Shown here piece after piece: positions 9,258-43,000 of a DNA stretch of 58,740 nt. Under the pieces are notes generated by a model. The model saw only the letters and a program-made list of their open reading frames with translations, was not told the DNA's origin and did no database searches. Within the stretch, counting starts at the first letter, position 1; each line of letters opens with the position of its first letter. The stretch is from Planctomycetales bacterium (lineage in GTDB: Bacteria; Planctomycetota; Planctomycetia; Pirellulales; S012-138). The stretch spans positions 1-58,740 of the forward strand of contig WFOE01000119.1 of assembly GCA_015488215.1 (NCBI GenBank). Reading direction: 5' to 3'. A program made the translations under genes and the position numbers.

Positions 9258-9668
9258 TCGTCTTTGAGCACACGGGTTCGGGAGATTCGGCCCGGCGTTT
9301 CGGCAAGCCTCGGACGAAAAAGTTCTTGGGCCCTTCGTCCTGTGTTAAGGGGGGAGCAGGAGCTCGCGGTGATTGCTCACGACACGCCTCCGGCAAAACT
9401 CCCGGCTGTGTTCTGTCGCCTCATTGGCAAGCCACCGACCTCAATCCCCGGAGGACGGCACGACCGTCGGCGCCTGGGTGCTGCCGCACCAAGGGCTTGG
9501 TGGCTTGGCGGCGTGGGGGGATGGGGGGAGAGCTTCCGCTCCAGGCAGGGAATCGGCTTGCGGCGTGCGGCATGCGACTTACGCGGAGCTTCCGCTCCGC
9601 TGCGAGAACAAGCGCCGATTCTGACAAATGCCAAGTCGAGTCGTCTGCCGGCGCGTTCGAAGACGATT
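9258..9668. repeat. Dispersed non-coding element, copy A
   Basis: This gap holds a mosaic element. Its left part (about 9290-9425) matches 16001-16140 at roughly 70 percent by eye. It also has a degenerate run of four heptamers (9322-9349) and the 70-bp unit at 9551-9620. The outer edges look like weak terminal inverted repeats: TCGTCTTTGAGCAC at 9258 and, on the opposite strand near 9654-9667, TCGTCTTCGAACGC (11 of 14). The 16-mer at 9258 recurs exactly at 42741, just before copy C. No transposase is encoded. Confidence 0.6.
9551..9620 (-). repeat. 70-bp heptamer-hairpin unit, copy A
   Basis: It begins AATCGGC and ends GCCGATT. It contains four tandem heptamers of the type GGCTTGC (9554-9581), then a perfect 7-bp hairpin GCGGAGC-TTCC-GCTCCGC (9583-9600). 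In ungapped alignment to the reverse complement of 42878-42947, 58 of 70 positions agree. Confidence 0.8.
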
Positions 9669-16000: not shown

Positions 16001-16217
16001 GCTCGGCGATTCGACGAGCTTCGGACAAAAGGTCCTGGGTCTTGCGTCTTGTGTCTTGGGCCGCCAGGAACTCGCGGCGATGGCTCACTATGCGTCGCGG
16101 CAAGATTGCCGGGGGTGTTGCGTGGTTCGTTGTGTATTTTGGGCGAGAATTGGCGCTGGTTCTCGCGCCGGAGCGGAAGCTCCTGCTCAAGACCCAAGGC
16201 GCAAGACGCAAGACCTT
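16001..16217. repeat. Dispersed non-coding element, copy B
   Basis: The left part (16001-16140) aligns with 9280-9425 of copy A. It contains four exact tandem heptamers of the type GGTCTTG (16031-16058). At 16148-16217 is a 70-bp unit in the same orientation as copy C, with hairpin GGAGC-GGAA-GCTCC and four heptamers of the type CAAGACC. The two heptamer runs are thus inverted about 130 bp apart. An open reading frame crosses this element in frame with the protease downstream, but it looks accidental. Confidence 0.7.
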
Positions 16218-17662: not shown

Positions 17663-18835
17663 CTAGCTGCCGCAGGGATCGCAAGCGGCAACCGGCACGC
17701 GCATCAGCACGGTGCGCGGCACGTAATAGGTTTCCACCACCGGCACGCGGCGCACCACGGTCCGCGGCACTCGCACGGTTTTCACTTCCTTGACCATGCG
17801 GCACGTGCGCACGGGAACCTTTTCCTCCCGCTGCTCGTAGATCATGCGGCATGTGCGCACCGGAACACGCTGCACCCGTTGCTCCTCTACCCAGCGACAT
17901 ACCCGAACCGGCACCTTGTACTGCACCTGTTCGACCACGGGCCGGCAGACTGTAACCGGCACGCGCTGCACCCGCTGTTCGTAAACGATGCGGCACACCT
18001 TCCGCGGCACTTGCTTGACCACCTGCTGCGGCACGTAGCGGCACACTTGCACCGGCACGCGACGCCGCACTTGCTCCGGCACGTAGGTGGTCACGGGCAC
18101 CTGGCGGGTGACGAGCTGCGGTTTCCACACCCGGCGGACCACCGTCTGTGGCGGCTCCTGCACCGGCACCCAGTACAGCCCCGGTGGACGATAAGCCATC
18201 TGGCCGGTGGCCGGATCCGGCTCGCAACGCCCGGAAAGCCAACGCAGACGGTTGCGCACGCGGCCGGGTACGGTAACGCATTCGGTAACCCAGCAGCCGC
18301 GGTCCTCCTGCACCGTGCGGTAAGTGACCACTGGCCGCATCACCGTGTAGCATTCTTCGCGGTAGTTGGTTTCAATAACCGGGCGCATCACGGTGTAAGT
18401 GACCTGTTCCATCTTGGTTTCCACCACGGGTCGGGCCACCGTGTAGCGGTGTTCCCGGTAGCGCGTCTCCCGCACATAACGCACCCGCTGGTAGCTACAG
18501 GTGCGGTACTGGGTTTCCCACACCGGACGCCGCACCGTGTAGCGACATTCCCGGTAGCTGGTTTCCACCACGGGTCGGGCCACCGTGTAGCGGCGGGTTT
18601 CGTAGCGGGTTTCCCACACCGGGCGATAGGAAACCACTTGTTGCTCCTGCCACTGGGTTTCGCACACGTAGCGGTACACGGTCCGCTGGCAGGGCTGAAG
18701 GACCGTCTGGCACACGACGCGGTAACAGCACGTCTCCTCGGCCCAGCTTGCCTGGGGCCGGACCGCCTCCAGGGCAAAGGCCAGCAGGACGGCAGCGAAC
18801 GCTCCACCGGTTTTCAACACTCGGGCGGGTTTCAT
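17663..18835 (-). CDS. Exported YTV-repeat protein, probable cell-wall protein
   Basis: After a signal peptide (to about residue 32, SWA) the 390-residue protein is almost all repeats of 16 residues. The first half has at least five units of the type RYTVARPVVETSYREC. The second half has about eight units of the type VPVRVCRWVEEQRVQR, one Cys in most. A proline-rich link (PPGLYWVPVQEPP) divides them. It is very basic and Cys-rich. Similar YTV-motif proteins are reported from the cell wall of Rhodopirellula-type planctomycetes, where disulfides are thought to link them; that role is inferred here. The start at 18835 gives the signal peptide. Confidence 0.85.
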   Translation of the reverse strand: MKPARVLKTGGAFAAVLLAFALEAVRPQASWAEETCCYRVVCQTVLQPCQRTVYRYVCETQWQEQQVVSYRPVWETRYETRRYTVARPVVETSYRECRYTVRRPVWETQYRTCSYQRVRYVRETRYREHRYTVARPVVETKMEQVTYTVMRPVIETNYREECYTVMRPVVTYRTVQEDRGCWVTECVTVPGRVRNRLRWLSGRCEPDPATGQMAYRPPGLYWVPVQEPPQTVVRRVWKPQLVTRQVPVTTYVPEQVRRRVPVQVCRYVPQQVVKQVPRKVCRIVYEQRVQRVPVTVCRPVVEQVQYKVPVRVCRWVEEQRVQRVPVRTCRMIYEQREEKVPVRTCRMVKEVKTVRVPRTVVRRVPVVETYYVPRTVLMRVPVAACDPCGS

Positions 18836-42782: not shown

Positions 42783-42868
42783 GGCGAGCCCCGGACTTCA
42801 GTCCGGGGAGACAAGAGGAAACGCTTTTCTGTTATTTCTCCTCCGGGAACTGAAGTTCCCGGCTCGCC
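42783..42868. repeat. Inverted pair of REP-like palindromes
   Basis: CCCCGGACTTCAGTCCGGGG (perfect 8-bp stem, TTCA loop) and, about 40 bp on, the oppositely oriented CCGGGAACTGAAGTTCCCGG. The flanks are also inverted: GGCGAGCC at the left and GGCTCGCC at the right, with GGGGAGA facing TCTCC inside. The whole can fold as one large cruciform, like the paired REPs (BIMEs) spread by IS200-type RAYT transposases. No such transposase is in the window. Confidence 0.8.
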
Positions 42869-42877
42869 GACTGCAAG

Positions 42878-43000
42878 AATCGGCGCTTATTTTTGCACTG
42901 GTGCGGAAGCACCGCGCAAGCCGCAGGTCGCAAGCCGCAAGCCGATTCGTGCCCGGTGCGGAAGCTCCCGCTCAAGACCCAGGACCCAAGACGCAAGATC
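42878..43000 (+). repeat. 70-bp heptamer-hairpin unit, copy C, plus a partial second unit
   Basis: 42878-42947 is bounded by AATCGGC and GCCGATT, with hairpin GGTGC-GGAA-GCACC and four heptamers of the type CGCAAGC. The second, partial unit (about 42951-43000) repeats the hairpin and has four heptamers of the type CAAGACC (42973-43000). It matches the right half of copy B closely, including the flank CTTCC-N2-AGTGG. Confidence 0.8.

Follow-up and report, generated by a model that had tools for sequence, protein, structure and literature searches.

The systems closest to the repeats reported here are the REPs and REPINs with RAYT (TnpA_REP) transposases, the BIMEs and the class 3 TnpA_Y1 transposases (PMC3733652, PMC2817692, PMC6006769) and, among modular repeats, the BOX elements of streptococci (boxA-boxB(n)-boxC; PMC3049150). 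Class 3 genes are adjoined by palindromes that also occur in high copy genome-wide, an arrangement that was called reminiscent of REPtrons; it is described only briefly there, with a call for experiments (PMC6006769). We found no paper in the open-licence literature on the planctomycete mosaic described below.

The window analysed here, a stretch of 58,740 nucleotides of a Planctomycetales genome, had been reported in a preliminary description to hold a 70-bp unit in three copies, referred to here as a (9551-9620, minus strand), b (16148-16217) and c (42878-42947, plus strand). The description holds for units a and c: each consists of a GGAA-loop hairpin followed by four heptamers, and the two are identical at 58 of 70 positions in an ungapped comparison. 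Unit b has the 5' half and the hairpin in common with them but carries heptamers of another type (CAAGACN, not GCAAGNC) and matches unit a at 38/70 and unit c at 33/70 ungapped positions; it is therefore not the same 70-mer. What had been read as a partial fourth copy at 42951-43000 is a second hairpin followed by a CAAGACN array. The parts are listed below, with the basis of each assignment in brackets; positions 42783-43000 represent one complete example of the mosaic arrangement in the window.

9529-9542, minus: degenerate second P3 hairpin (GGAGCGGAAGCTCT) near unit a (sequence)
9551-9584, minus: type-A heptamers of unit a (sequence, pattern scan)
9585-9598, minus: P3 hairpin of unit a, GGAGC-GGAA-GCTCC (sequence, pattern scan)
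9599-9620, minus: P2-like 5' module of unit a (sequence)
16031-16060, minus: separate antisense type-B heptamer array, about 70 bp past the stop of the upstream gene (sequence, pattern scan)
16143-16166, plus: P2 palindrome of unit b, GCGAGAA...TTCTCGC (sequence)
16170-16183, plus: P3 hairpin of unit b (sequence, pattern scan)
16188-16215, plus: type-B heptamers (CAAGACN) of unit b (sequence)
42783-42810, minus: P1 palindrome, left half of a REPIN-like pair (GGCGAGCC-CCGGACTTCAGTCCGG-GGAG) (sequence and pattern scan)
42811-42840, no strand: 30-bp spacer of the inverted P1 pair (sequence; fits the spacer class of P1 pairs)
42841-42868, plus: P1 palindrome, right half (CTCC-GGGAACTGAAGTTCCC-GGCTCGCC) (folding)
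42872-42897, plus: P2 palindrome (TGCAAGAA...TTTTTGCA), within which the reported 70-bp unit begins (folding)
42900-42913, plus: P3 hairpin of unit c, GGTGC-GGAA-GCACC (sequence, pattern scan, folding)
42914-42947, plus: type-A heptamers (GCAAGNC) of unit c, with GCCGATT at the end (sequence)
42955-42968, plus: second P3 hairpin, with the middle pair mismatched (GGTGC/GCTCC) (pattern scan)
42973-43000, plus: type-B heptamers (CAAGACN), four copies (sequence)

In computed folding, the P1 pair at 42783-42868 forms a single long hairpin (-49.5 kcal/mol, z -5.8). Elsewhere in the window, 24- and 48-bp tandem repeats at 18029-18622 lie within a predicted gene (17663-18835, minus) for a repeat-rich protein.

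Exact matches to the hairpin-plus-heptamer pattern number 212 in the 4.29 Mb of this genome, rather than the three copies first noticed, and a reversed control pattern gives none, so the repeat is real and not a product of chance. Counted with exact patterns, which give lower bounds, the P3 hairpin (GGWGCGGAAGCWCC) is present in 493 copies here (genome G000), 827 in the sister species G002 and 24 in a further congener, G001, with 0-3 copies in each of 37 other relatives; the corresponding counts for P1 are 321, 664 and 20, with 0-1 in the other relatives. Of 398 genomes drawn from the class, G002 not among them, only this one contained the full pattern, and in a scan of public species genomes all of the matches listed were JALSGI01 contigs (Planctomycetota bacterium isolate 354-166), whose numbering agrees with G002. 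The repeats are thus lineage-specific, being restricted to one planctomycete genus. With the class-wide matches confined in this way and no match in Rfam, a widespread RNA was rejected, and the small RNA that had been offered as one reading of the unit gained no support as an independent RNA.

The anatomy and location of the modules were analysed in a sample of 1.56 Mb (36% of this genome) favouring contigs known to hold units, with genes predicted by our own simple periodic Markov caller, whose gene starts are approximate. The 70-bp boundary is not a natural one; the unit consists of P3, a GGAA hairpin of 14 nt, joined to alternative tails, namely type-A heptamers (89 copies), a palindrome P4 (58), type-B heptamers (37), octamers (27) or other sequence (40). 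Among the type-A copies the number of heptamers differs in exact 7-nt steps, and two main kinds of left module occur. P1 (CTCC-stem-GGCTCGCC) often lies upstream of P3 in the same orientation, with a modal gap of 33 bp (exactly 33 in 43 copies), and is present in 89 of the 115 gaps that bear P3, where about 16 would be expected if the two were independent. Adjacent P1 copies form inverted pairs in which the -+ order predominates over the +- order (48 versus 5 in G000, 54 versus 6 in G002), with a spacer of mostly 25-44 bp. P3 forms no inverted doublets, 58 of 64 close pairs being direct. At one locus (L170, 9331-9524), P3 hairpins alternate in orientation at a regular 32/58-bp spacing and resemble BIME-2; similar spacing is seen in G001 (contig C389) and G002 (contig C13).

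The preliminary description had also pointed to compensated arm changes between units a and c as a hint of selection on structure. Between these two hairpins the compensation amounts to one base pair, A-T versus T-A, and the same single pair is what supports the GGAA hairpin more generally: across 60 copies of the P3-P4-P1 composite the middle pair of P3 is UA in 30, AU in 18, UG in one and unpaired in 11, the other four pairs being invariant. For the neighbouring P1 the idea holds, as 6/9 pairs of its stem show compensatory changes in these 60 copies. Over the whole composite, 93.8% of cells pair and 117 cells are changed on both sides, compared with 48 in shuffles that ignore the relatedness of copies and no more than 27 with the partner slid. 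Since the copies were selected with fixed P3 arms and P1 feet and the shuffle is blind to relatedness, the argument is carried by the interior pairs of P1, for which selection on structure is well supported.

A Pfam search for Y1_Tnp was negative for this genome and for G001 and returned five proteins from G002; a protein query with a Y1 gene of G002 likewise gave no hit in the first two, four in G002 itself and distant relatives in the order. The contig ends of this genome are rich in modules (42 of 138 have one within 200 bp, compared with 2.9% of random stretches), so a transposase associated with the arrays could be absent from this assembly. The G002 proteins feature HUH and WWT motifs and Y-x3-Q, where the published class 3 has YV[VI][AENY]EQ (PMC6006769), and by their sequence appear class-3-like, close to but not identical with that class. 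All four G002 genes (L064, L067, L070 and L073) have a P1-type palindrome within about 40 bp of the stop, and in L073 and L064 the stop codon falls within it. In L064, L067 and L073 inverted P1-type palindromes also lie 23-67 bp before the start (for L067 a start near position 2067 of the locus is used in place of that of the longest frame), so that both ends are bracketed; in L070, whose downstream palindrome is seen, the upstream side runs off the contig. Although G002 holds about 660 strict P1 copies and only four class-3-like genes were examined, chance bracketing is unlikely, because inverted palindromes stand 0-70 bp from the gene ends in three of three complete loci.

Among the related genes of other relatives, one from another genus of the order (G015; L350, 1362-2125) is bracketed by different paired palindromes (cggcggggTTTATccccgccg); the others that were examined show no such bracketing or no intact frame. 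G002 also encodes a different Y1_Tnp-like gene just below the Pfam cut-off (L077, 1111-1890), which sits between two near-identical module stretches of about 200 bp and is adjoined by a GGGAGGGCGAGGCTCCC palindrome. As a transposase for P3 it was rejected, the flanking P3 copies being direct repeats of a longer array.

Comparison with G002 at the DNA level yielded 3 comparable gaps and protein-level orthology 40. Of these 40, three are empty here and filled in G002, and three others are occupied in both species by differing content; this sample favours repeat-bearing G002 contigs, so gains and losses are not countable from it. In one divergent gene gap (L323 17680-18082 versus L226 3715-4269) G002 has a palindrome array that this genome lacks. 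The compared sites showed no target-site duplication, though their junctions are blurred, the divergence between the two species being too great to place exact insertion points at the filled G002 sites. Copies in this genome are more diverged than those in G002: gap pairs with a common stretch of 80 bp or more at no less than 95% identity number 1 of 9180 here and 12 of 3828 there.

Taken together, the directly observed features (copy number, location, pairing, doublets, linkage, species differences and the bracketing of the G002 transposases) make it probable that the units are cassettes of a genus-restricted, REP/REPIN/BIME-like non-autonomous mosaic, whose P1 palindromes were spread by a TnpA_Y1 transposase and which is now orphaned in this genome. 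The core of such a mosaic would be the P1 palindrome in inverted pairs with the 25-44 bp spacer, and its frequent layout would run from P1 through P2 and P3 to a tail of type-A heptamers, type-B heptamers, octamers, or P4 and another P1. We infer that P1 pairs spread in the past through a class-3-like TnpA_Y1 single-strand DNA transposase and that P2-P3-heptamer cassettes hitchhiked with these pairs or were duplicated together with them, after which the number of heptamers would have changed by whole 7-nt units, probably through slippage. Since 84 of the 228 P3 copies lack a P1 within 150 bp and P3 copies standing close together are mostly direct repeats, the cassette may also spread by duplication or other means. 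In this genome the transposase would be gone or lie in an assembly gap, presumably with loss of activity; the population looks orphaned because no transposase was found and the copies have diverged. The earlier suggestion of a non-autonomous mobile element was thus broadly right in view of the copy number, the extragenic location, the presence and absence between species and the P1-bracketed transposases of the sister species, except that the 70-bp unit is a cassette inside a larger mosaic and not the element itself.

The location of the modules bears on a different explanation, in which the cassettes are functional 3'-end elements, retained because the hairpin and heptamers at gene ends, acting in the transcript or in the DNA, terminate transcription, shield mRNA 3' ends or serve as a protein-binding site. 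Only 9 of 259 hairpins lie inside predicted genes, though coding sequence makes up 81% of the sample, and modules occupy 41 of 132 convergent, 91 of 495 tandem and 8 of 176 divergent gaps of at least 50 bp; P1 avoids promoter-side gaps. A 3'-end role would fit this avoidance of divergent gaps as well as the orientation of the hairpins: of 68 tandem-gap regions, 56 have the hairpin on the strand opposite to the flanking genes (p=6e-8), and these antisense copies sit at a median of 107 bp past the upstream stop; in convergent gaps, 25 of 34 copies within 150 bp of a stop are antisense to that gene. Orientation tracks the flanking genes and not GC skew, and replication-strand bias was rejected as its cause. 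However, 404 of the 495 tandem gaps are without a module, the tail type varies freely, orthologous gaps can be module-free and the sense strand has no U-tract, and REPs and other bacterial small repeats likewise favour convergent or tandem gaps (PMC3733652, PMC3049150). We therefore regard retention for a 3'-end function as unlikely. That the hairpin-heptamer cassettes are not passengers but were co-opted as gene 3'-end elements, read by a heptamer-recognising protein, strikes us as distinctly improbable; if true, it would account for their consistent facing toward the stop of the upstream gene.

Mutation alone could also be invoked, with template switching at replication keeping the stems perfect and slippage copying the heptamers, and no transposase involved. 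The exact 7-nt steps and the discrete perfect versions of the stems would follow, but hundreds of dispersed sites, sharp inverted doublets at 25-44 bp and the bracketing of transposase genes would be left unexplained, making this account very doubtful. A MITE moved by a DD[E/D] transposase, with the perfect 8-bp inverted repeat of units a and c (GAATCGGC/GCCGATTC) as its ends, is hardly credible and was rejected, since the ends are not conserved across copies: the left module is often different (ACGAGCACGAGCG), the right tail often lacks GCCGATT, unit b is without the repeat, no target-site duplication was seen, and copies are chained with other modules instead of being discrete.

The mosaic that we favour shares with the REP/REPIN systems short extragenic palindromes in hundreds of copies (above a threshold of 100), inverted doublets with a short spacer (for P1, 48 versus 5, but not for P3), compensatory stem variants (P1, 6/9 pairs), a preference for convergent and tandem gaps and, in the sister species G002, transposase genes with inverted bracketing copies. 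It differs in that no such gene was found in this genome, that the G002 transposases are class-3-like and that hairpin-heptamer cassettes are linked to the palindrome here. The 5' GTAG/CGTC tag of REPs has no fixed counterpart: GYRG/CYRC occurs within 10 nt of 52/258 P3 copies at no fixed position, and none was seen at P1 by eye. With the class 3 TnpA_Y1 systems (PMC6006769) it has in common planctomycete genes with HUH and WT motifs and a Y..Q motif, whose spacing in G002 (Y-x3-Q) departs from the published one, together with palindromes next to the genes and in high copy genome-wide. Inspection by eye of the P1 copies adjoining the G002 genes did not show the 5' foot CnGA. Like BIMEs, it chains several palindrome types with inter-palindrome modules, and alternating orientation is seen in P1 doublets and in a few P3 arrays, but most neighbouring P3 copies are direct and arrays of heptamers and octamers occur among the tails. 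BOX elements are likewise modular, with an internal array of variable number and enrichment between convergent genes; they belong to another phylum and have another make-up, and the likeness drawn here is one of organisation. The genus appears to hold three stages, with many copies and transposases in G002, many diverged copies and no detectable transposase here, and few copies in G001, which makes the life cycle of palindrome populations testable. Since neither the GTAG tag nor the CnGA foot was found, we describe the mosaic as working like REPs and BIMEs and not as a classified member. P1 behaves as the REP does in REPINs, and the whole is a lineage-specific, BIME-like mosaic, in which a hairpin with swappable heptamer tails forms a cassette absent from descriptions of standard REPs.
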